DNA from: Nitrososphaeraceae archaeon
GTDB taxonomy: Archaea; Thermoproteota; Nitrososphaeria; Nitrososphaerales; Nitrososphaeraceae
DNA length: 64,000 nt
Direction: 5' to 3'
Assembly: GCA_021325295.1 (NCBI GenBank)
Contig: JAJPHM010000031.1
Span: 62,001-126,000, forward strand
Shown: positions 2,458 to 18,896 of the stretch, in pieces
How the letters are laid out: the number at the start of each line of letters is the position of its first letter
How positions within the stretch are numbered: the first letter of the stretch is position 1
The notes under the pieces: model-generated
What the model was told of the DNA's origin: nothing
What the model saw: the letters and a program-made list of their open reading frames with translations, nothing else
The model's database searches: none
Made by a program: the position numbers and the translations under genes

Positions 2458-3816
2458 TTATAGTTGGAATCCTCGCAACCCTGCCGGAAATGAATTACTT
2501 GAATTCCTAGCGGTATAGATTTCATCAAGCTCAGTAGGGGTAATCCAGCTGTCAGTCGCACCATGTCTCATTAGAATGCCTTTATCTCTGAGATAATATG
2601 GTTTGTTATCTCCTTTGAATATTGATATGACAATTACTGTTTTGGTATCTGTCAATCCTTGGCCATCGAGTTCTACCTTCTGCAGCTTGAACTTTATCGT
2701 TGAAGGCTGAATATTGCTCAAAATTCTGCAAGTTATTTTGTCATGCAGTTCGCCAAGGTCATTTATCACTTGATATCCTCTTATCTGTCCATTCTTTTCA
2801 ACGCCAAGCAGTATCCTGCCTCCATTGGCATTTGCAAAGGCGACAAAAGTCTCAAGAAAATCGTTACCCTCTTCTCGTTTAAATTCTACATTTTCATTCT
2901 CTCCTCTCTTTATCAATTCAATTATTTCTGCAAGTGGCGACTCTACTTTCACGTCAGAAGAATAGTGGGACCAACCAAGGTGGATTTCTCTAGCATCCAA
3001 TAACTCATCATTTTCACCAAGTATAGCAACTGTAATGATGTCTGGCTCGAAGTCTGCTTGGCATTCTACCGACATTGACAAGTTGAAAGTTAAGTCTCCT
3101 GATTGATATGTTCGTCTCTCTTTTGCAAGATACATCTTTGCTACTATCTTGTCAGGAGAGGCAGTTTTAGTGTCAATTGTTAATGTGACCCTCTTACCCG
3201 ATATTACAATCTCAGATATCCGTGCTCTAAAATCAGGGATAACCATAATCAATTGGAAAAGATTGCTGCTGTGGTCAACTTTTGACGATAGCCTTAGAAA
3301 GTCGGTAATTGCAGTGTATAGATCGGGATATGTCGGGAGACCTTTCCTGGACAGTATTTGATAGCTTGTCCCAAAGCTAGGCGGCCTGCTCAAGGAGAAA
3401 TTCAGCAGGTTGGATGGCCAATCGTGACCACCATAACCATAATTTGACTTGCTAAATAACAGGGTAGAATTGGCATTTTCAGATATTTCTAGAATCACTC
3501 TATCCGGCAAGACTATCTTTCCAGTGCTTACCACTCCGCTCAAAATAAGCAAGAATGCGTCTATGGGAAGTATATATGAAGTCAATATCACATTCCCGTA
3601 ATCATATACTGCTGCATCTGGAAAACCAGTCTCGCTTCGATGAAACATCTCAACTTTGCCCATTACAGGAGTCATAGTATCCTGAATCATGGCAAATACA
3701 ATTCTAAAAAGAACAGCATTAGCATAGTCTGAGCGCCGGCTTATTATAAAATCAGATAGAGACTTGACAATATTGCCTGCAGGTCCATTGATATAATCTC
3801 GATACGATGATACCAT
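2458..3816 (-). CDS. Schlafen/AlbA_2-domain protein, putative nucleic-acid-binding regulator
   Basis: 452 residues. The C-terminal third (about 315-440) matches the AlbA_2 or Schlafen-core pattern: an ENVEFKRE strand, then FVAFANANGGRILLGV, then GYQVIND and a late RHGATDSWI segment. This family is found in regulators and in defence or mobile-element proteins and is linked to nucleic-acid binding. The N-terminal 300 residues are beta-rich and unrecognised. A TATA element (CTTATAAAG, 3839-3847) sits about 26 bases before the ATG at 3816, so the transcript is probably leaderless. The gene follows the exported-protein gene on the same strand with its own promoter. Its role in the element is unknown. 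Confidence 0.75.
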   Translation of the reverse strand: MVSSYRDYINGPAGNIVKSLSDFIISRRSDYANAVLFRIVFAMIQDTMTPVMGKVEMFHRSETGFPDAAVYDYGNVILTSYILPIDAFLLILSGVVSTGKIVLPDRVILEISENANSTLLFSKSNYGYGGHDWPSNLLNFSLSRPPSFGTSYQILSRKGLPTYPDLYTAITDFLRLSSKVDHSSNLFQLIMVIPDFRARISEIVISGKRVTLTIDTKTASPDKIVAKMYLAKERRTYQSGDLTFNLSMSVECQADFEPDIITVAILGENDELLDAREIHLGWSHYSSDVKVESPLAEIIELIKRGENENVEFKREEGNDFLETFVAFANANGGRILLGVEKNGQIRGYQVINDLGELHDKITCRILSNIQPSTIKFKLQKVELDGQGLTDTKTVIVISIFKGDNKPYYLRDKGILMRHGATDSWITPTELDEIYTARNSSNSFPAGLRGFQL

Positions 3817-4697: not shown

Positions 4698-5495
4698 CTA
4701 CAGTTTTAATCTCTGGGTTCGGCTTGATGGTCCTTCCATTTGCTTGTCTGGGGAATCGCCACTCCCAGGGAGTTTATTATCTGAATTTGGGGTAACACCC
4801 TGACTCTGGTTTGAACTTGAGTTGTTTGGGTTATATCCAGCTGCTTCCAGAGTTTGAGCTATTGTTTTTTCTATGCGGGTGCAGATAGGAGATATCTCCT
4901 CCCATCCTTTGTCATACATTTCAGTCCAGTACGAATATGGGATAGTATCTGTCTCATGGTACTTCAGGTTGGGGTCTGTAAAATCAATCATGGGCTTCAT
5001 TACCTGATAGGGAAATATTCCATTTGCAGTGACCTTGTACTCTGTTACCTTGTAGTGGAACCCTCCAATTCTGATAATATATTCTGCATCGTATCTGCCC
5101 CAGGCTTGCAAAAAGTTGATGGGCTTTCTGATAGTCACTATGCCTTTCTTCTGATCCACAGACTCGCCAGGAGAGAGGTGCTTCAGGGACAGCAGCCTGT
5201 CCTTTCGTGGTCCATGGTATACCTTGCGAAAGTCTTCTATCATCTCTTTTGGGATAGGAATGATATGCTGTGTGTCGACCTGTCCACCTTCCAGCTCGTA
5301 GTATCGCTTGCCAGTCTTTGGATCCAGCGTCACATAGTCTACCAAAGCATCCATTATGGGCAGAGCCCTGTAGTATTGCTTGACATCTCTATATGATTTG
5401 TAGCCTATAAGCTCCCTGCTTACTTCTTCCAAAAATGAAAGAGGATAGCGCATCAGTATAGATTTTTTGATATTTGAGACTTCTTCCTGGCTCAT
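4698..5495 (-). CDS. Element protein of unknown function, 265 residues
   Basis: Residues 1-215 are mixed alpha/beta with many aromatic residues. The last 50 residues form a polar low-complexity tail rich in Asn, Ser, Gln and Pro. The start overlaps the stop of the upstream 165-residue gene by four bases (ATGA), so the two are probably translationally coupled and act together. No known domain was recognised. Because this pair is divergent from a packaging-type ATPase gene, a structural or DNA-handling role is possible, but that is inference from position alone. Confidence 0.65.
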   Translation of the reverse strand: MSQEEVSNIKKSILMRYPLSFLEEVSRELIGYKSYRDVKQYYRALPIMDALVDYVTLDPKTGKRYYELEGGQVDTQHIIPIPKEMIEDFRKVYHGPRKDRLLSLKHLSPGESVDQKKGIVTIRKPINFLQAWGRYDAEYIIRIGGFHYKVTEYKVTANGIFPYQVMKPMIDFTDPNLKYHETDTIPYSYWTEMYDKGWEEISPICTRIEKTIAQTLEAAGYNPNNSSSNQSQGVTPNSDNKLPGSGDSPDKQMEGPSSRTQRLKL

Positions 5496-5986
5496 AGAGT
5501 AAAATTGTAATTGCCTTTTGGAGCTGAAAAGACATTGATAAGGTAGTCAGCGTTCCATGCCGAAATCTCCCAGCGATAGAGTGCATTTTTATGCATATAC
5601 ATCACGTCTTTTCTTCTAATACCAAGTGGGCGCTTGCCAATCAACCTAACCAAACCTTCGACTGTCTTCTTGTTGTCATCCTGGCTCTTTATGGCCAGAT
5701 ACCGGTACCCAAGGGAACCTAGTGCAATCTTGTCTATTGACAGGAAAAGCTTGTCCATCTTTTCTTTCAGGTCCTCTCTGATTAGATTGGTATCTTCAAC
5801 TTCAACGCTATACCTCTCATCTCCAGGTGATGGAGGAAGGCACTCTTTACACTCAAAGTAAAGACTGGTCCACCAGAGGGCAAGATAACGCAGATACAGC
5901 ATTGCTCTTGAGCGCATCAGCCTATAGCGAAAGTCTTCTTCTGACTCTTGTTCTGTGGATTTAGGATACGAAATAGAATCCATCAT
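5492..5986 (-). CDS. Element protein of unknown function, about 165 residues
   Basis: The frame is open from an ATG at 6049, but that start would overlap the divergent ATPase gene. The tandem ATG codons at 5986 and 5983 directly follow an AT-rich promoter-like stretch, so I place the start at 5986. The protein is helical at the N-terminus (residues 1-70, YRLMRSRAMLYLRYLALWW) and mixed after that. Its stop overlaps the start of the 265-residue gene. Function unknown. Confidence 0.6.
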   Translation of the reverse strand: MMDSISYPKSTEQESEEDFRYRLMRSRAMLYLRYLALWWTSLYFECKECLPPSPGDERYSVEVEDTNLIREDLKEKMDKLFLSIDKIALGSLGYRYLAIKSQDDNKKTVEGLVRLIGKRPLGIRRKDVMYMHKNALYRWEISAWNADYLINVFSAPKGNYNFTL

Positions 5987-6010
5987 AAAAAAAATTAATA
6001 ATTTTATTTT
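5987..6010. promoter_or_regulatory. Bidirectional AT-rich promoter between the unknown gene pair and the ATPase gene
   Basis: 24 bases separate the two divergent starts (ATG at 5986 minus, GTG at 6011 plus). They are almost pure A and T. Both genes would be leaderless, with TATA-like sequences overlapping the opposite gene's first codons. This is inferred from composition and spacing. Confidence 0.45.
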
Positions 6011-7279
6011 GTGATCCAGGGAGGAAGCAAGCCGGTTATTCAACTCCATCCGTTCTATCCTGCCTATTTTTGTATTGGAAAAAAGGGTGCAGGCAAGTCA
6101 GCCTTGTTGGAAAGGATGCTTGAAGTGTATTATCAGGAGGGCTATCAGGTCATGGACATGAACTGTGCCGCCGATCTGGAATCATTGCACTGGTCAGTGC
6201 CGCATCCTGACAGGCCTTCTAGCAGCGGGTATCCCATCTTGGTTATCTTGCCGGCCAGCACGTCAATGCGGATTTTCCCAAGGACGTTGAAGCTTGCCGA
6301 TGGAAGGGAAGTTGAAGCGATAAAGACTATTTCTGACTCTACTTCCTTTGCCGAGATAATTCGAGAAGCACTCAAGGAGAAAAGAGTAATTGTCTTTTCA
6401 ATCCACCTGTATGATAGCGAGGCCAAGGGACAGCTAAAGTTCTCTCACTTTATCAAGGAATTCCCAAGGGTGGTGAGGGACCATATGCCTCGAGACCTGA
6501 AGTTTGCAATAGGCCTCCGAGAATTGTCAGACCTATCTTCAAACAGGATGCTTACCTTTTCTGGAGGAGGAGAACGTGAGAGCAAGCGAGGGCTCAATTA
6601 TTTCTCTAGAGTGGCCAGACATTCTAGGACGGTTTTAGTGCTGGACATGCAGGATCCTGACCAGGTGTATTCGGCCCTGACGGCACAGGAGGACTTTATT
6701 TTGGTAAAGAGGCTAAACAAGCACCATATACCAGAAAAGCTCAACTGGCTCAAGCAGGACATTGGCAATCAGATAGAATTTGCAAAACAGCACTATTTGA
6801 TGAGCAAGCTGCAGGCTGTTAGCCTTGATAGGTTGACAAATAATTCCTTCTACTGTGTCTGGCCAGATGGTGAGTATTCACTGGAACATAACTCCCAGCC
6901 GCAGGGGTTCAGACATCATGAATCAGACGATGACGCTTTGGCGCTGGCAGGTGTATCGCTGAAATTCCTGACAAAGCAGGAACTAGAGCAATCAGACCAG
7001 GGCAAAATAGAGTACCTGAAAAAGAAGCAGGCTGCCAAGGCCGAAAGGGAGCAGCAACTTGTCAACGCATATGAGATGTATCGACAAAGGAAGGCTGAAA
7101 ATATCGCCTATTCCTGGAATGATTGTGCCAAAGACTGCAAGTTCTTTGGAGCAGACGGCAAGCCAGCTGGAAATACGCTCCGGATTGCCATCAACAGATT
7201 GGGAGAACGCGGTGGAATCCCCAGCTACCATAAACTGGCAGAAAACGATTCCAAGGACCCTGCAGATCAGTCCTCCTGA
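6011..7279 (+). CDS. HerA/FtsK/A32-type P-loop ATPase (DNA packaging or translocation)
   Basis: 422 residues from a GTG start. The Walker A loop is GKKGAGKS at residues 23-30. A Walker B-like strand with an acidic end (KFAIGLREL) lies near residue 165. A Gln-containing strand after a conserved Arg (RHSRTVLVLDMQ) near residue 205 matches the sensor strand of HerA/FtsK superfamily ATPases, which includes viral A32-like packaging ATPases and conjugative pumps. The C-terminal 100 residues are Lys/Glu-rich, then a compact piece (about 370-410) that could be a winged-helix DNA-binding tail. It is divergently transcribed from two unknown genes. The likely role is to move element DNA, either into a particle or between cells. 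Confidence 0.7.
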   Translation: MIQGGSKPVIQLHPFYPAYFCIGKKGAGKSALLERMLEVYYQEGYQVMDMNCAADLESLHWSVPHPDRPSSSGYPILVILPASTSMRIFPRTLKLADGREVEAIKTISDSTSFAEIIREALKEKRVIVFSIHLYDSEAKGQLKFSHFIKEFPRVVRDHMPRDLKFAIGLRELSDLSSNRMLTFSGGGERESKRGLNYFSRVARHSRTVLVLDMQDPDQVYSALTAQEDFILVKRLNKHHIPEKLNWLKQDIGNQIEFAKQHYLMSKLQAVSLDRLTNNSFYCVWPDGEYSLEHNSQPQGFRHHESDDDALALAGVSLKFLTKQELEQSDQGKIEYLKKKQAAKAEREQQLVNAYEMYRQRKAENIAYSWNDCAKDCKFFGADGKPAGNTLRIAINRLGERGGIPSYHKLAENDSKDPADQSS

Positions 7280-10358: not shown

Positions 10359-10550
10359 ATGGAACCAATCGTGTTTGAATGTGAAAGCAAGGTATTCAGA
10401 GCTACCAAGAAAAGCCTTAGCCTTCGTACCACAATCCCAGAAGACATTGTTCAGTTTTTGAAGTTGCAGGCAGGATCTAAGGTAAAGTGGATAGCATACA
10501 TAAGGGAAGGCACTGTTACTGTCATTATCAAGAAAAAGACAGAATCCTAA
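10359..10550 (+). CDS. AbrB-like transcription regulator
   Basis: 63 residues with a clear AbrB/SpoVT fold pattern: SLSLRTTIPEDIVQFLKLQAGSKVKW, then a final strand TVTVIIKKK. It is probably leaderless, starting at the ATG within TTTATGGAACC, with an AT-rich stretch upstream. It lies after the Zn-finger gene and before the candidate origin region. Likely dimeric DNA-binding regulator of element genes. Confidence 0.7.
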   Translation: MEPIVFECESKVFRATKKSLSLRTTIPEDIVQFLKLQAGSKVKWIAYIREGTVTVIIKKKTES

Positions 10551-10751
10551 ACTTCATAGTCATTTGAATATGACTATGCAAATGCACAATAAAGCAAGAA
10601 ACCCCATGATTGATAGTGAACTCTTGTCACGAGCGTCACGAGCTTTTTACGTACCCTTAGATTTTTTTGGAGTGCTTGTAGAAAATAAAAATAAGGAGAG
10701 ATTTAAAAATAAAAAAAGGAGTAGGGACTTTTGCTCGTGACACCCGTGACA
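10551..10751. repeat. Convergent intergenic region with inverted repeats around an A-rich tract; candidate origin
   Basis: GTCACGAGC is repeated twice head to tail at 10626-10643. An inverted copy of the pair (16 of 18 bases) lies at 10733-10750. Between them is a purine/A-rich stretch (about 10665-10725) that would melt easily. A separate perfect palindrome with arms CATAGTCAT and ATGACTATG covers 10555-10578 and may be a terminator or binding site. The region lies directly beside the primase-helicase stop codon, a usual place for a plasmid or viral origin. No gene is seen in it. Confidence 0.5.
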
Positions 10752-13043
10752 TTATGAATATTGATTCATGTTTGTTTGGGAAGTATCCTTTATTCTGACG
10801 CCAACATAGACATGATACCTGCCTCCGTCCTTACGCCTTCTTTGCCTATTTTCTATACCTAAATCAGCCAATTTGGCACCCAGCGCGTTAGGCTTAAGTG
10901 GGTTGATTTGTTTCTCTGCAGTACTCTTGTTCTTACAATAATCTGTATAGATATCATAGAATTCCTTGGTTTCAACCTCACCTTCAACATCTTTGATAAA
11001 ACACTCTTGAAGGACAGCTGCAACATGATTTTCTAGCTTCAAATACTGAGCTTTTACCTCCTGCCATGATTCCAAAGCATATTCTGGATCTTCTTTCAAC
11101 TTTCTGAATCCATCCAGAGCTAAGTTGAGCAGACCAGATAGTTCATTTGGAGTCTGCAATTTTGAATCCAAGTCCTTATCGGCCTCTTCTTCGCTGAAAA
11201 CCCTCTCAAACATTATCAAAACAAGACGTCTCATTGTAGAAAACGAGTTGTCAGGTGGCGGAAGCTTGTTGAAAGAAAAGGCAAGCTTGGCACCGTTAAC
11301 AAAATGAAATATTGGTAAGCCTTTATGCTCAGCAGCAATAAGGTCACCACCACTCAATGACCTTATTATCGCCCAGTTCTCAATATCATCTGCACTTACG
11401 TCACCTGCAAAGTTGAGTATTTTTCCATAAAGCTGTGCTCTCGCAAATCGCTCATCTGCAAGTGACTGTAATGTAACCGCACTGAAATTGTCAGGGCCTA
11501 CAAATGCCCTCAAAAGTCGACCAAGGGTGCCTTTTCCATTTCGCCCTGATCCGACGAGAAAGTACAGAGACTGATATCTATAGTCTCGTGTAAGAATATC
11601 ACCCAACAGTCTCTTTACTTTATCTTGATTTTTCTCGTCTAGTGATGTTCCCAGAAACGTCTCAACAGCTGGACAGACTGCTTCTAGGTCAAAATTTACT
11701 GGCAACTGCACTATCGATAGATATTCTGGGTCATGTGGATTCAGCTTACCAGCTTGAATATCAAGTAGCCCATTTTTCACATTGAGAATATATGAATTGG
11801 AATCAAATTCCGACCTATTTGCGGGAGTAGTCCTCCTGATCATCTCAATAACTTCGTTTACAACTGCAGTCCGGGCTCTCGCCCAGAGTTTTGGACATTC
11901 TATTTCGATAATTCTCTCACCATTTGATAGATACTTGCCATCTTGGTAATAGTAAATCTCACGTGTATCATTCATAGTTCTGAAAACATATTCCTTCTTT
12001 ATCGTCTCTGCAAGCTCAAACGCCAAGTCGTTATTATCTACGAGTGACTTGTGGGATAGAATCCGAGAATATGTAGTTTGGATAATTTTTCTTGCAGTGG
12101 ATTCCCCGGCTATACCAGATATGATGGATAATAATCCCTTGTACCCCATGACCACCTGTTTCTGTTTCTTATACGTCTCTTCCAATGCAATGAATCGAGA
12201 TTGCTTTTCCTCATCCTCTTTTGTTAGCCTCAAAAAAAGCTCCTTTGCAGATTCAAGAGTGACATCATTTTTTAGCAGGAAGCCCGCTAGATATAGGCAG
12301 ATAACATTGCGATAGCACTGTTTATAGTGCTCTTTTAACAATTCACAGATTGTATCGATATCAGGATCCGTTAGCCCTACCTCATTTGTAGAGAGTGAAT
12401 TCAGTTGACTGCCTTTCTGAGAAGTTTTTGGCTTCAGACAATCACTCAGTAGTTTGATAAGAGAATTGTAAAGCCCATCTGCCACCATTATTTTATTCTG
12501 ACCGATGTTCTGATACTCAAAATCCGGATATTCTCTATGCCTAGAAGGTGGCAAGGAACAGAGGCCGCTGGTCTTGTCAGTTTTGATCTCAAATTCCTTC
12601 CCATATATGCAATCTTTAACCTTAATTGGAGGATTTGGCTCATGGGAGAACCAGTAAATATGATATCCAAAGGACTTTTTTGTTTTTGTAACAAATGTCA
12701 TTTCTCGTGATTTGTCTATTAACGAATATCTTGCGCCATTGTCAGGGTCTGCCAAATTAACCAGAATCCTAAAGACATCCTGACTATCGATATCTAAGCA
12801 ATTGAGAAATAGGTTGGTTCCATGTTCATCCTTAAAGTGAGTCTTACCGAAGCAAGTTGCAACGTTATAGAATCCAAAGAGCCTTTTTGCAAGCTCTTCC
12901 ATATCCCAGCTATTCTCATATATTGAACTCCAGGAAATTACCGGAGTTTTCGCATCGTTCCTCAATGGCACAACTTTGAAGCCGATTTTGAACAACTCCA
13001 CCACGGTGGCAGGCTTGACCATTCTTTCTGCAGCTGATGTCAT
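10752..13043 (-). CDS. PrimPol-D5 (SF3) primase-helicase, element replication protein
   Basis: 763 residues. The N-terminal part (about 10-200) resembles the bifunctional primase-polymerase domain: a CLDIDSQD strand with two acidic residues (Asp84, Asp86), GYHIYW near 126-131 and the LPPSRHR loop near 164-170. Residues 350-620 form a D5/P4-type helicase: Walker A GSGRNGKGT (498-506), a Walker B strand KILNFAGDVS and a sensor Asn in FSFNKLPPP (about 592). A winged-helix tail follows. It primes and unwinds element DNA. The start overlaps the stop of the AbrB-like gene upstream (ATGA), making it the last and largest gene of the long leftward operon. Confidence 0.85.
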   Translation of the reverse strand: MTSAAERMVKPATVVELFKIGFKVVPLRNDAKTPVISWSSIYENSWDMEELAKRLFGFYNVATCFGKTHFKDEHGTNLFLNCLDIDSQDVFRILVNLADPDNGARYSLIDKSREMTFVTKTKKSFGYHIYWFSHEPNPPIKVKDCIYGKEFEIKTDKTSGLCSLPPSRHREYPDFEYQNIGQNKIMVADGLYNSLIKLLSDCLKPKTSQKGSQLNSLSTNEVGLTDPDIDTICELLKEHYKQCYRNVICLYLAGFLLKNDVTLESAKELFLRLTKEDEEKQSRFIALEETYKKQKQVVMGYKGLLSIISGIAGESTARKIIQTTYSRILSHKSLVDNNDLAFELAETIKKEYVFRTMNDTREIYYYQDGKYLSNGERIIEIECPKLWARARTAVVNEVIEMIRRTTPANRSEFDSNSYILNVKNGLLDIQAGKLNPHDPEYLSIVQLPVNFDLEAVCPAVETFLGTSLDEKNQDKVKRLLGDILTRDYRYQSLYFLVGSGRNGKGTLGRLLRAFVGPDNFSAVTLQSLADERFARAQLYGKILNFAGDVSADDIENWAIIRSLSGGDLIAAEHKGLPIFHFVNGAKLAFSFNKLPPPDNSFSTMRRLVLIMFERVFSEEEADKDLDSKLQTPNELSGLLNLALDGFRKLKEDPEYALESWQEVKAQYLKLENHVAAVLQECFIKDVEGEVETKEFYDIYTDYCKNKSTAEKQINPLKPNALGAKLADLGIENRQRRRKDGGRYHVYVGVRIKDTSQTNMNQYS

Positions 13044-13945: not shown

Positions 13946-14631
13946 ATCGAGCCCTCCACTTGAGATTTCTGTCGCTGTATTTCCTTGATGTATTTCCCCT
14001 TGGTATCCTCTCGAAGTTTTTCTCGCCAGGTTGTGAGTTCTTTGATTACAATGCTCTTTTCATGTATCGTAAGTGAGTCGTACAGGTTATCAAGTATCAC
14101 TTTCAATACAACAACATGGAGAAATGCGCCTGTGTTAGAATTGAATGCACTTCTTAAAGGGTTCCCTAATTCCATTTTTTTGCGATATGGAAGATGGAGC
14201 ATTCGGCAGTATCGATGGAGAAAAATGTTGGCTTGCCTGAAGGTCTCGTCTTTTGTGAAATCAACATGGACTTTGTAAGGCCCATGCACACTCTCAACTC
14301 CTTCCTCAATCCAAGTATTTCGCGACCCAACCTGTCCTGCAGTATATCCGTCTTGTAGAATTCCATATTTTGCAAGCTTAGCAGCCAAGCCTTTACTGCT
14401 ATCGGATATCCATTCCATTTGAGTACCGTTTTTTGTTATGAGGCTTGGGTCTGAATCAGAAGAGTTGAGAAGTAATTCTCTATTGGCATCATTATTTATT
14501 TCAAACTTGAGGTTCTCAGTCTCTGTCTTGTCAATAATGCCGCACTTTGAGCAGCTAACCTCATGTTGTTCATAGTCACGCTTGAGAATGTGCATGCCGT
14601 TTGGATCTTGTCTGCATTTTTCGACTATCAT
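13942..14631 (-). CDS. Zinc-ribbon protein, possibly TFIIB N-terminal-like
   Basis: 229 residues. Near the N-terminus, EVSCSKCGIIDKTE (about 24-37) is the second half of a TFIIB-type zinc ribbon. The first half is degenerate (one Cys at residue 6 and a His near 13 in place of the usual CxxC). The C-terminal 110 residues are helical (ETFRQANIFLHRYCRML and later segments) but I cannot see a convincing cyclin repeat. It might recruit RNA polymerase to element genes, or be another zinc protein. It overlaps ParB's stop by four bases and is coupled to the 41-residue gene downstream. Confidence 0.45.
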   Translation of the reverse strand: MIVEKCRQDPNGMHILKRDYEQHEVSCSKCGIIDKTETENLKFEINNDANRELLLNSSDSDPSLITKNGTQMEWISDSSKGLAAKLAKYGILQDGYTAGQVGSRNTWIEEGVESVHGPYKVHVDFTKDETFRQANIFLHRYCRMLHLPYRKKMELGNPLRSAFNSNTGAFLHVVVLKVILDNLYDSLTIHEKSIVIKELTTWREKLREDTKGKYIKEIQRQKSQVEGSI

Positions 14632-15485
14632 TTTGCTATAGCTTCACCTTCTGTTGCTTTTGCTTCAGCTCTGATTCTCAATAATTCCTTAGTCGGATCA
14701 TCTGAAGTATTGACATAAACGGGGATCAGTAGTGCACACCTAGGACAGGGAATACTAGTATCAGTAAGTTTGCCCGCAATCATTGCTTGCTCTTCTGATT
14801 CAGAAAGGTCGCTGAAACGAACTTTCCATCTAGAATTATCATCTATTGATGATGGAACAGAAGAGGCAATGTCTGTTTTGACATCTGCTTTAACTTGCGC
14901 TGCCAATTTATCTGCTTCAATTTGCTTTACTGCTGCGCTCACAGACTTCTTCTTTTGCATAACAGCCTCAAGCAGCGGTCCATATTTTTCAGGATTCTCA
15001 CTGACAGCTGTAACGAGCTTGACCTCTTTTCGTAAAGTATCTTTCTTGACACCTAGTGCCTGCTCTGCGACAGAATAAGTTGAACCCCTTGGAAAGGTGT
15101 CTGTTTCAGACGCCTTCTCTAACTCGTCTTTACTAGGTCGATGTCCAATTCTTGTAGCCTGGATAGCTTGAATGATTGCAACTCTTTCGGTAAGCGTGTA
15201 TTCCTTTCGATGTGCATTTTCGTCAAATTCAGCCTGCAGTGGATTTGCAAGCTCAACAACATGCACAGGTACTTCTTTGAGTCCTAATTTAGTAGCACAA
15301 GCGAAGCGCCTTCCACCGCAAACCAACAGGTATCGAGAGGGACCTTTTCTGACTACTACAAGAGGTTCGAGTATGCCAAGCTCATTTATTGATGCGATTA
15401 AACCAGTGAGGTCTCCCGGGTCTTTTCGATACCGCTCTCCAACCTCAACTTGATCTAGCGGAACAATTGAAATTACAGACGTCAA
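14628..15485 (-). CDS. parB: ParB-like partition/DNA-binding protein
   Basis: 285 residues from a TTG start at 15485. The start is fixed by the Shine-Dalgarno GGGAGGAGG (minus strand, 15496-15504) ten bases upstream. The ParB/Srx N-terminal domain is clear: VEVGERYRKD, SINELGILEPLVVV, CGGRRFACATKLG, VPVHVVE (residues 12-79). A helix-turn-helix region follows (YSVAEQALGVKKDTLRKEV). The C-terminal part has a CPRC pair near residue 248 that may bind zinc. ParB proteins bind centromere-like sites and help segregate plasmids; some act in transcription. No ParA partner gene is visible. Confidence 0.8.
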   Translation of the reverse strand: MTSVISIVPLDQVEVGERYRKDPGDLTGLIASINELGILEPLVVVRKGPSRYLLVCGGRRFACATKLGLKEVPVHVVELANPLQAEFDENAHRKEYTLTERVAIIQAIQATRIGHRPSKDELEKASETDTFPRGSTYSVAEQALGVKKDTLRKEVKLVTAVSENPEKYGPLLEAVMQKKKSVSAAVKQIEADKLAAQVKADVKTDIASSVPSSIDDNSRWKVRFSDLSESEEQAMIAGKLTDTSIPCPRCALLIPVYVNTSDDPTKELLRIRAEAKATEGEAIAK

Positions 15486-15568
15486 TCGAAGCTAGCCTCC
15501 TCCCTTTGGGCTATCTCACAGAAGACAGCTCCCAAAATTTCAAATAATTTCTTTGATGTAATTTTCAT
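15482..15568 (-). CDS. Possible 28-residue leader peptide before ParB
   Basis: ATG at 15568; the stop TGA overlaps the TTG start of ParB (TTGA). The peptide is MKITSKKLFEILGAVF followed by an acidic end. The ParB Shine-Dalgarno lies within it. The overlap suggests translational coupling. Whether the peptide has a function is unknown. Confidence 0.3.
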   Translation of the reverse strand: MKITSKKLFEILGAVFCEIAQREEASFD

Positions 15569-15585
15569 ATAGGGTCACACCTCGT

Positions 15586-15638
15586 GTCGGGTTGATGTAT
15601 GCAGGAGTCCTGTTGGAAGGGACAACTCCTGCCCCGAC
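15586..15638 (-). other. Large two-part hairpin upstream of ParB
   Basis: GTCGGG (15586-15591) pairs with CCCGAC (15633-15638), and GCAGGAGT (15601-15608) pairs with ACTCCTGC (15625-15632). The two right-hand arms are contiguous, so the structure is a 14-bp stem with a nine-base bulge on one side and a 16-base loop. It occupies the gap between the small zinc-protein gene and ParB. It could be a structured 5' RNA, a processing or attenuation site, or a binding site in DNA. I do not recognise a known riboswitch or ribozyme core. Confidence 0.55.
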
Positions 15639-15642
15639 GGTT

Positions 15643-15819
15643 TTACGTTGTAGCTGCCACCTCCGATGGCCTGAAGGCTAAATCGTTCATAAGAAGGTCT
15701 GCAGCACATTTATCGCAGAAATGGCCAATGAGATTGAGATAGCGCAAGCGCAATACTATATTCCCCGGCTTTGCACAGCCAAGTCCCGCACATTGTTGAA
15801 TTGTTGAAAATTTCTGCAT
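15643..15819 (-). CDS. 58-residue Cys4 zinc-binding protein
   Basis: ATG at 15819, stop at 15643-15645. Two cysteine pairs (Cys10 with Cys15, and CDKC at about 35-38) are spaced like a small zinc ribbon; between them is a basic segment (LRLRYLNLIGHF). It lies between the AbrB-like gene and the ParB hairpin on the same strand. Likely a zinc-binding nucleic-acid or protein-interaction module. Confidence 0.5.
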   Translation of the reverse strand: MQKFSTIQQCAGLGCAKPGNIVLRLRYLNLIGHFCDKCAADLLMNDLAFRPSEVAATT

Positions 15820-15829
15820 GCATTACCGC

Positions 15830-16006
15830 CTATCGTAATTCAAGCTTCCTGAGAAAGATGCCGTTCTCTTTTTCTTCAAGTATTACATGAGCAGGCTTCT
15901 GAAGACCATATTTGATAGCAAGCCGTCTTGGAATAACCAAAGTACAAGATGCATGACCGGCAAGAAAGGTTTTGACAATTTCCTTTTGCTCTGAATTGTC
16001 AGACAT
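15830..16006 (-). CDS. 58-residue AbrB-like regulator, first gene of the replication operon
   Basis: ATG at 16006, stop TAG at 15830-15832. The sequence CTLVIPRRLAIKYGLQKP followed by strands VILEEKENGIFLRKL is a typical AbrB/SpoVT half-site binder. As the first gene after the divergent promoter it is likely an autoregulator. Confidence 0.6.
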   Translation of the reverse strand: MSDNSEQKEIVKTFLAGHASCTLVIPRRLAIKYGLQKPAHVILEEKENGIFLRKLELR

Positions 16007-16070
16007 GAAGATATTACAGTAATAATGTTAAATAAGCACTACGTTCGGTTACTAAATACTAAGTGATAGT
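16007..16070. promoter_or_regulatory. Divergent promoter of the replication operon and the 355-residue regulator gene
   Basis: A perfect palindrome TATTA-CAG-TAATA covers 16012-16024, right before the leftward AbrB start. A TATA-like element (minus GCTTATTTAAC, 16027-16037) is about 26 bases ahead of the ATG at 16006. A plus-strand AT-rich element (ACTAAATA, 16051-16058) precedes the ATG at 16071. The palindrome covers the expected leftward transcription start. Confidence 0.5.
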
Positions 16071-17138: not shown

Positions 17139-17245
17139 ATAATCCATTCGATAGTTTGTTCCTAATGCTTCTTTTATCACACGTTTCAGGCCTCACAGGA
17201 AATCCCGAAAAGATTTGGGCAAGATTCAACCCTACAATTTACTGA
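17135..17245 (+). CDS. Possible 36-residue coupled peptide
   Basis: The ATG at 17135 overlaps the TGA of the 355-residue gene. The frame ends at 17243-17245, 14 bases into the convergent integrase gene. It has a short hydrophobic run (LFLMLLLSHVSG). Only phase and overlap support it. Confidence 0.3.
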   Translation: MNNPFDSLFLMLLLSHVSGLTGNPEKIWARFNPTIY

Positions 17246-18587
17246 AATCGACTTTCTTGCTTAACTCAAGTAGCTTCTGTTCCACAATAGTTTCCACTTC
17301 CTTCTTTTGCCTCTCCATAATCTCGGAATGAGCCTGGTTTGTCAGAGGGAATTTACATCTTGGATTGAGGCAGTACTGAGCATCCGGCTTGTTCGGTTCA
17401 GAGCAGTTCGGACATGGCTTTAATTTAATAGAATTTTCATACTTTTCTTTTGGCTTGATTATTCCATATGCTTCCAGCAGCGAAATGCTAGACTCGTTAC
17501 CAAAATAATGGATGTATCGTGCAGGCATTTTGCTATCCATCGACCAGCCAGAATATTGCCTCAGTACATGCTCTTTCAATATCTTCGACTTGTTGGTAAG
17601 GCCTGTATGTCTGAAAATGTAAGGGGCCCACGGCTTGGTTAGCATGCTTCTAATCAGAGCCTTGTCTGCAGGAGGTACTTCCTTATCGTCCTTTTTGAGC
17701 AGCTGGGGAAAGAATGAGTCTCTATACTGTTCTCTAAAGTGCTTGCCCAGCGCATCCTCTGTAAGGCGTTGGCCGTAAACCTGATCAGCAAGCGACACAA
17801 AAATGAAAGCATTTGGATTGTCGCCATCAGGATGGCCTCCCTGAAGCCATTCCTTCAGGTATGGCAGAGACCATATGAGTGGCAGCCGTCGGTTAGTTGT
17901 CTTACCAGACACGTCAATGTAGGCATACTTTGTTCCATCACTTGCGGAGTCATATGAAATTTGATGGATCCTTCTGCGCAAAATCTCGTGCGGTCTTGCT
18001 GAAGTGTCCAGGGCAACCATCGCCACATATGCTCTGTCACGTTTGTTCTGACAGTATTTCAAAAAACAGGCTATTTCTTGGTCGGTCCAGATATCGCCAG
18101 GTCCGTAAGCGCTGACCTCTTTTCTTGGCAGTGGACGAATATTTACACAGTCGGGTGTTTCTCTTAGTTTGGCGTTAGGTTCGTCAGGATTGTAGAGCCA
18201 TCTGAAGAATTTGCTAAAAACCATGAGTCTGTTATTATAAGTACCAATCCAGCGGTGTTTTCCATCATCTTCTTCGCTTTTTCTGAGAGTATTGAGATAT
18301 ATGATAATATCCTGCTTTGTCATGCTCTTGAATGATTTGTGATGAAGCTCCCGGGAAAGCCAGTAAAGGATTTTCAACTGCCATTCCTTGGTTGAATTTT
18401 TGATATTAAATTCCACTTGTTCAGCATCAAAAAAATCACAGAGTATCTTGGCATTGGCAGGGTTTGCCTCTAAAAGTTCAATGAACATGTTACGAAAATA
18501 TGGCCTTGAAAGTCCGTCAGTCAGCTTTACAATTCTGATTCTAAGGTTGGCAGTGGAAATCAGCTGTTTTTGCTTGAGTCTGGCCAT
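17232..18587 (-). CDS. int: Tyrosine recombinase (integrase) of the element
   Basis: 451 residues. A core-binding domain (about 35-140) precedes the catalytic domain with Arg198 (DTSARPHEILRR), Lys229, Arg326-His327 (PYIFRHTGLT), Trp348 and nucleophile Tyr358 (ARYIHYF). Position 323 is Tyr where most family members have the first His of the H-x-x-R box. A C-terminal zinc ribbon follows (Cys392, Cys395, Cys406, Cys411) and a coiled coil (420-445). A TATA box (minus TTTATAAAG, near 18617-18626) lies upstream. It sits immediately beside the 3' end of tRNA-Ser, the expected layout for integration into a tRNA gene. It catalyses insertion and excision of the element. Confidence 0.9.
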   Translation of the reverse strand: MARLKQKQLISTANLRIRIVKLTDGLSRPYFRNMFIELLEANPANAKILCDFFDAEQVEFNIKNSTKEWQLKILYWLSRELHHKSFKSMTKQDIIIYLNTLRKSEEDDGKHRWIGTYNNRLMVFSKFFRWLYNPDEPNAKLRETPDCVNIRPLPRKEVSAYGPGDIWTDQEIACFLKYCQNKRDRAYVAMVALDTSARPHEILRRRIHQISYDSASDGTKYAYIDVSGKTTNRRLPLIWSLPYLKEWLQGGHPDGDNPNAFIFVSLADQVYGQRLTEDALGKHFREQYRDSFFPQLLKKDDKEVPPADKALIRSMLTKPWAPYIFRHTGLTNKSKILKEHVLRQYSGWSMDSKMPARYIHYFGNESSISLLEAYGIIKPKEKYENSIKLKPCPNCSEPNKPDAQYCLNPRCKFPLTNQAHSEIMERQKKEVETIVEQKLLELSKKVDFSKL

Positions 18588-18649
18588 CTGAATAGGCAGC
18601 TATTGCCTTGAGTTGTTTATAAAGAGATGGCTACACTACACGAGACGTG

Positions 18650-18775
18650 CGCCGGGAGTGGGACTCGAACCCACGAGTCCCGAAGGACATCAGCTGGCGC
18701 GTCATGCATTTGACTGATCTCGAGGCTGACCCCTGTTAGGGCCGATTATGACTTACCTAGCTTGGGTACCCCGGC
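18650..18775 (-). tRNA. tRNA-Ser(CGA), with anticodon-loop intron and a probable D-arm intron; integration target
   Basis: The acceptor stem is GCCGGGG (18769-18775) with TCCCGGC (18651-18657) and discriminator G at 18650. The T arm is GTGGG-TTCGAGT-CCCAC and there is a long variable arm GTCC-TTCG-GGAC, typical of tRNA-Ser. The anticodon stem TCAGC/GCTGA encloses CTCGAGA (anticodon CGA) once a 23-base intron after position 37 is removed. That junction fits a bulge-helix-bulge (CTCG-AGA-TCA against TGA-CGCG-CCA with one mismatch). The D arm carries about 17 extra bases; removing them gives CCC-loop-GGG and an 86-base mature tRNA. The exact D-arm splice sites are not certain. A TATA-like ACTTTATG lies upstream. 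Confidence 0.85.
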
Positions 18776-18896
18776 AACCCTTTTCATAAAGTATTGCAAT
18801 TTATGCCTTTTTCGTGGTGACAAGATATCTGTTATCCTGAAAGTGAGCAAAGTCAATTTAGAAAAAATATATTGATGGAATCTATAACCAAAGGTC

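Follow-up and report, generated by a model that had tools for sequence, protein, structure and literature searches.

We analysed a 64,000-nucleotide stretch of DNA from a Nitrososphaeraceae archaeon (the window, 62001-126000 of its contig) and found at 10625-10751 a 127-bp repeat module that is very probably the replication origin of an integrated mobile element of about 25.8 kb, of the kind that lies downstream of its initiator gene. A sequence-only reading had proposed that iteron-like repeats and an easily melted tract beside the primase-helicase make up an origin at this place, and the proposal is well supported by the conserved architecture and by the homologous site of pRN1, which is experimentally essential for replication (PMC4234260, PMC3869888). 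The anatomy of the module, its 9-bp pitch and its recurrence, in different letters, behind related D5-type helicase genes were established by comparing sequences. By analogy with known systems, the iterons are most likely read as duplex DNA by the winged helix of the primase-helicase itself.

The repeat module and its element

Exact copies of GTCACGAGC occur in tandem on the plus strand (10626-10634 and 10635-10643) and once on the minus strand (10733-10741). When extended, these copies give two inverted arms of 19 nt each (10625-10643 and 10733-10751), which are 89% complementary and separated by a gap of 89 nt. The right arm is a 9-bp tandem too, reading TGTCACGGG|TGTCACGAG on the minus strand. 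Inspection of the sequence, an inverted-repeat search and an array scan gave four iterons: L1, TGTCACGAG (10625-10633, plus strand); L2, CGTCACGAG, one 9-bp step from L1 (10634-10642, plus strand); R1, TGTCACGAG (10734-10742, minus strand); and R2, TGTCACGGG (10743-10751, minus strand), which adjoins the stop codon of the primase-helicase gene (10752-10754) without a gap. The iteron core in this element is GTCACG. The earlier description of tandem copies facing an inverted pair across an A-rich tract, beside the 3' end of the primase-helicase gene, was thus confirmed by the exact copies, the complementary arms, the composition of the tract and the contact with the stop codon; it had the plus-strand tandem pair on the left side right and overlooked the tandem nature of the right arm on the minus strand. 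Its start at 10551 was too early: a small convergent ORF ends at 10550, and 10551-10624 contains an unrelated 9-nt hairpin (10555-10578) and no iteron. Between the arms, sequence and composition delimit an A+T-rich tract of 89 bp (10644-10732, 73% A+T), which is a candidate unwinding element. T runs are present on both strands of this tract and could end transcription of both convergent genes.

The module lies inside an integrated mobile element bounded by a 19-bp direct repeat that encloses 25,831 bp. One copy of the repeat is at 18649-18667, in what looks by eye like the 3' end of a tRNA, and the second is outside the window, at window coordinate -7182. A tRNA-like sequence with an apparent intron was seen by eye on the minus strand at 18649-18777 and appears to be the integration target; ARAGORN called no tRNA there, also when introns were allowed. 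Beside the right repeat copy is a gene for a tyrosine-integrase-like protein (17232-18587, minus strand; PHROG integrase, E 1.1e-20). The proposed initiator is a primase-helicase of 763 aa (10752-13043, minus strand), identified by Pfam, PHROGs, alignment and a structure model, and on the other side of the module a small convergent ORF of 63 aa (10359-10550, plus strand) resembles AbrB/MazE with a weak, below cut-off Pfam MazE match (E 0.0049). The element also encodes a protein with a Schlafen AlbA_2 domain (2458-3816, E 1.1e-18). A ShosA-like gene was called by PADLOC at 5008-6443 of locus L032 (window -6992 to -5557, E 3.4e-74), and the ORF that overlaps and follows it resembles a phosphoribosyltransferase by eye; judged by eye, a ShosTA-like defence pair appears to sit just inside the left attachment repeat. 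Other ORFs in the window were recognised by eye as flap endonuclease, archaease, HisS and TrpA/B, and the gene content is archaeal-like.

A single 9-mer is unremarkable, with nine matches in the window where 7.9 are expected when one mismatch is allowed. We therefore relied on an array score for a tandem pair of words followed, after 30-150 nt, by an inverted tandem pair. The score of the four-copy inverted arrangement was reached by none of the dinucleotide shuffles in three tests (0/100, 0/200 and 0/40), and among 853 overlapping tiles across the element the module came out on top (0.889; runner-up 0.685). GC skew, which had been suggested as a check on the excised form, gave no support: the detrended skew of the element has its minimum at 15.9 kb and its maximum at 2.4 kb, not at 10.6 kb. 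Since the minimum falls in a divergent intergenic region (15486-16070, 585 bp) in which we found no iteron array, we read it as gene-orientation bias; it still counts against the origin at 10.6 kb. This region contains a G+C-rich, hairpin-prone stretch seen by eye at about 15570-15700, and a second AbrB/MazE-like ORF (15830-16006, minus strand).

Relatives of the helicase and their downstream sites

In the same archaeal family, 24 of 70 genomes had a match to the primase-helicase. Peptide patterns drawn from the window protein alone confirmed no relative in either sequence collection, so that proteins sharing roughly 22-46% identity had to serve for the comparison. When the DNA after the stop codons of 16 relatives was inspected by eye, about 13 had the layout of the window module, in other letters.

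A scan of 260 nt from the stop codon detected other-family sites in only 3 of 27 loci at ≤2/200 shuffles. This window missed many of the sites because the arrays overlap the non-conserved coding tail of the helicase, and the scan window was therefore moved to the end of the helicase profile. In six loci (L068, L069, L070, L077, L078 and L087) the array runs into the 3' end of the helicase ORF, and the same bases then belong to both the coding sequence and the putative origin. The resulting 600-nt scan was a second look, set after inspection of the data, and its control used an identical scan of the 600 nt before the helicase domain. A score of at least 0.74 was obtained in 19/27 loci of the same family (window included), 10/27 genome loci from other families in the phylum, 5/44 viral contigs and 3/21 plasmid or phage records; the controls gave 0/27, 0/26, 0/40 and 1/19, respectively. 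Loci below this score numbered 8/27, 17/27, 39/44 and 18/21 in the same order. The sequence-only reading had named conservation in relatives as a check, and what is kept behind related helicases is the architecture and not the letters (19/27 in the family against 0/27 in its control). When loci were instead counted at no more than one of 40 shuffles, the four sets gave 21, 15, 15 and 6 and the controls 0, 1, 2 and 2, counts that include A/T-run artefacts. Some 'significant' matches below the threshold are such artefacts, and the 0.74 match of L028 is T-rich.

Several features of the samples bear on these counts. Near-copies were counted apart, so that L068, L094 and L096, from one genome, make up three of the ten other-genome loci. 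Three family, eight other-genome and 15 viral loci were left out for profile reach, shortness or duplication; among them L093 had an earlier score of 0.78. From the first set of loci, tested earlier, 19 with an unmatched C-terminus and one duplicate (L030) had been removed. pRN2, positive in an earlier test, is outside the 21 plasmid and phage records, as its stretch contains no gene. pDL10 did not score in the array test, and the score of pSSVx came from an A/T run. Bordetella phage BPP-1 and all eight other bacterial phage and plasmid records (L107-L114) were negative in the 260- and 450-nt tests, though L114 scored 0.89 in the longer 600-nt scan. In 34 of the 37 high-scoring loci, A+T content was higher between the arms than in the flanks.

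Stems found by pairing only, with repetition ignored, were concentrated at the same place. Within 300 nt after the stop codon, significant stems were found in 16/29 family loci (window included), compared with 1/29 upstream, 0/25 at 600-900 nt downstream and 0/29 inside the gene. The corresponding counts were 17/45 against 5/41, 0/43 and 2/45 for viral contigs, and 7/27 against 2/19, 0/25 and 2/27 for other genomes. It was the in-gene stems of the other genomes that revealed the frequent overlap of arrays with the coding tail.

Iterons, stem or another kind of site

These stems raise the question of which property of the module is the functional one. The origin may act as a cruciform or stem-loop, as proposed for pRN1, with the replication protein assembling on the hairpin and the repeats within the arms being incidental. 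We consider this unlikely here, although several observations speak for it. Single-strand folding is strong at the module (z -4.06, 0/200 shuffles), and eight of ten Sulfolobus-type stems pair at 18-20 of 20 positions. In pRN1, one stem mutation replicated only after the opposite arm restored symmetry, and purified ORF904, the pRN1 replication protein, gave neither a specific gel shift nor a footprint at its origin (PMC4234260). The mutant rescued by symmetry favours pairing over iterons in pRN1.

Pairing does not, however, predict 9-bp repetition within an arm. Among 32 regions of 260 nt (family loci together with pRN1, pRN2 and pDL10), 17 had a best period with z≥4, and for 15 of them that period was 9. 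Even when arms were chosen by pairing only, identity within the family arms at lag 9 was 120/176 (from the 16/29 loci with a significant stem), and the remaining lags between 4 and 14 all gave 0.19-0.29. The Sulfolobus-type set of ten, in which five loci were placed by resemblance, gave 46/99 at lag 9 (9/10 loci) versus 0.15-0.30 at other lags. In the viral set, lag 9 reached 0.47 and lag 8 0.44, with 0.23-0.36 at other lags; as lag 8 rises almost like lag 9, the pitch is not exactly 9 everywhere. The near-identical viral contigs L121, L122, L127 and L128 have 8-bp steps (TTTCCATG type) rather than 9-bp ones.

A stem under selection for pairing should make stem partners more alike than non-partners. 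In the 37 high-scoring loci, which were picked by a score that treats the two alike, partners agreed at 579/666 positions, non-partners at 574/666 and words within an arm at 577/666. Mismatches between the arms spared the iteron core, with 17/370 at positions 1-5 versus 70/296 at positions 6-9, and none of 300 simulations was as low; the phase was fitted to TGTC, and the simulation imitated this step. Because partners are no more alike and the core is spared, pairing in these 37 loci looks like a by-product of inverted iterons. At locus L016 the iterons, counted by eye, are unevenly divided, with about five to one side of the tract and one or two to the opposite side, which speaks against a stem. 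In pRN1, the stem pairs at 20/20 positions although its two iterons differ, and therefore both constraints may act there.

A bidirectional transcription terminator between convergent genes is a quite improbable explanation. The module does lie between convergent genes (10359-10550, plus strand, and 10752-13043, minus strand), and its T runs on both strands would suit a terminator, but 9-bp tandem inverted arrays are not required for termination, and in several relatives the array is inside the helicase coding tail. In pRN1 a separate terminator hairpin could be deleted whereas the arms and loop could not, according to one report (PMC4234260); another describes poor growth for a pRN1 deletion similar to that of the terminator hairpin (PMC3869888). 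High-scoring arrays are also seldom found elsewhere, as only 8 of 1070 control tiles, taken from flanking DNA and from the window outside the module, scored at least 0.74. Of these eight, one duplicates the L006 locus, five fall within or next to the 3' portion of other primase ORFs (L044, L046, L047, L049 and L051), one is about 520 nt after a Halomarina plasmid primase (L056) and one is within a plasmid primase gene (L063). L046, L047 and L056 are good array candidates downstream of their ORFs; the four in coding sequence (L044, L049, L051 and L063) were not counted as arrays.

The element encodes a ParB_N-domain protein (14628-15485, minus strand; Pfam E 1.4e-10), which raises the idea that the module is a centromere-like parS site for it. 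Inverted repeats can serve as ParB sites. We give this idea very little weight, because in relatives the site goes with the helicase gene and the site of pRN1 is required for replication itself, and ParB is not needed to explain the origin. Finally, the arms resemble 19-nt terminal repeats around 89 bp, as in a tiny MITE-like insertion, a reading with almost no probability given that a genome search with the 401-bp region returned one match only at E≤0.001, no target-site duplication is visible by eye beside the arms, and different letters occupy the same place behind other helicases.

The putative initiator and known origins

We examined the primase-helicase as the putative reader of the iterons. 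Pfam placed D5_N and DUF5906 above cut-off, and alignment revealed an SF3-type ATPase with the Walker A motif GxGxNGK. The N-terminal Prim-Pol match was weak (19.1 bits versus a cut-off of 22.8), so that the AEP assignment is weak as well; no TOPRIM family was among the four Pfam matches. Single-sequence structure prediction gave a pLDDT of 35.6, and we used instead an AlphaFold2 model built with the alignment, which covers residues 340-763 at pLDDT 91.2. In this confident model the protein ends in a predicted winged helix, with the C-terminal order H-E-H-H-E-E. Its best solved fold match was the SaPI5 primase-helicase (7ola_C; Z 32.0, rmsd 5.8, 375 residues aligned; Foldseek E 6.4e-22), and the family profile also matched this protein (7ola_A, E 1.5e-37). 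The C-terminus of the family profile matched RFX-type winged helices (E 6e-5 and 0.009), and 10 of 20 family members matched the Pfam RFX domain with E values of 1 or below, the best being 3.2e-6; the sequence of the window protein by itself gave no Pfam RFX match. The tail domain of a related viral helicase was reported to resemble both the origin-binding domain of P4 and the winged helix of Rfx1 (PMC10516667). Iteron similarity correlated weakly, and not specifically, with that of the winged helix (Mantel 0.157) and of the ATPase domain (0.171). As the winged helix tracks the iterons no better than the ATPase does, it is not proven to be their cognate reader.

We propose the following sequence of events. 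The C-terminal winged helix would bind the iterons as duplex DNA with two subunits per arm, and each arm would nucleate one hexamer, giving two hexamers in opposite orientation. The A+T tract may then be melted by ATP-driven SF3 action, the Prim-Pol domain would prime on the opened strands, and a host polymerase would extend both ways after the element has been excised. Since the site adjoins the gene for its proposed initiator, the two are passed on together as a single cassette.

The nearest known counterpart is the pRN family. As in the window, its origin is directly downstream of an AEP-SF3-winged-helix gene and has inverted arms of about 20 nt around an A+T-rich middle; the window module shows each of these pRN1-type traits (the gene-adjacent site, the inverted arms of about 20 nt with a loop, and the predicted C-terminal winged helix). 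The pRN1 arms read TGTCCATAG|TGTCCAACT, and the arms of pRN1, pRN2 and pHEN7 share the 9-bp step of the window. The pRN stems pair nearly perfectly, whereas pairing in the window is imperfect and conservation is in the iteron core, and the loop is 58 nt in pRN1 compared with 89 nt in the window. A region of about 100 bp downstream of orf904 is needed for replication of pRN1 and restores replication when moved (PMC4234260, PMC3869888); the former describes the downstream 'stem-loop' as having no iterons, and the latter proposes rolling-circle replication for pRN1. Pfam and PHROGs searches, with ten proteins scanned in each and covering part of the element's ORFs, gave no match to a rolling-circle Rep.

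The self-loading D5-type helicases of SaPI and SCCmec (Cch2) have, like the window module, iterons directly 3' of the helicase gene. The module shows this SaPI-type trait as four 9-bp copies 3' of a D5-type helicase gene, and the best fold match of its protein is the SaPI5 enzyme. According to one report, the C-terminal domain of Cch2 binds its putative origin and the inverted repeats are not needed for binding (PMC7581432), which also places the SaPI and SCCmec iterons directly downstream of the gene. These systems differ in being bacterial and in the Cch2 iteron sequence, AAGTG, and their likeness to the window module is known from description and not from sequences. Phage P4 alpha is a primase-helicase fusion whose winged helix binds origin repeats, as described in PMC4234260. 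The window module and its helicase resemble P4 ori/alpha, again by description, in the primase-helicase fusion, the winged helix and the repeats at the origin, but P4 alpha has a bacterial TOPRIM-type primase and the window protein instead has the weak Prim-Pol match, with no TOPRIM family among its four Pfam matches.

Taken together with the survey of relatives, these comparisons lead us to lean slightly towards a wider reading, in which AEP/D5-helicase replicons have a single origin design in common, across integrated elements of archaea, plasmids of Sulfolobus and some of the viruses. In this design, inverted tandem pairs of 9-bp iterons, two in number, would flank an A+T tract where the initiator gene ends. 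The letters would diverge freely, the pitch of 9 (8 in some viruses) would reflect the placement on DNA of neighbouring winged helices from a single initiator hexamer, and the pRN1 'stem-loop' would be the same module seen via pairing. An origin downstream of its initiator is a known kind; what would be new is the rule of inverted 9-bp iterons, together with the way it recasts pRN1. Our literature search, largely of open-access text and partly of incomplete sources, returned no description of inverted 9-bp iterons for this replicon class, and a survey of thaumarchaeal elements lists AEP-SF3 primase-helicases, in its available part, with no origin (PMC6563490). The rule would locate origins in archaeal mobile elements with primase-helicases independently of sequence, from the 9-bp pitch, the inverted pairs and the helicase 3' end. 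How AEP-SF3 replication proteins recognise their origin, given that no specific in vitro binding was seen with the purified pRN1 protein, would become testable by mutation. The design may not be confined to this class of helicase: GTTACAT-type inverted 9-bp arrays are present downstream of long primase ORFs in two further loci (L046:1846-1962 and L047:1068-1191), whose C-termini have no match to the window helicase.
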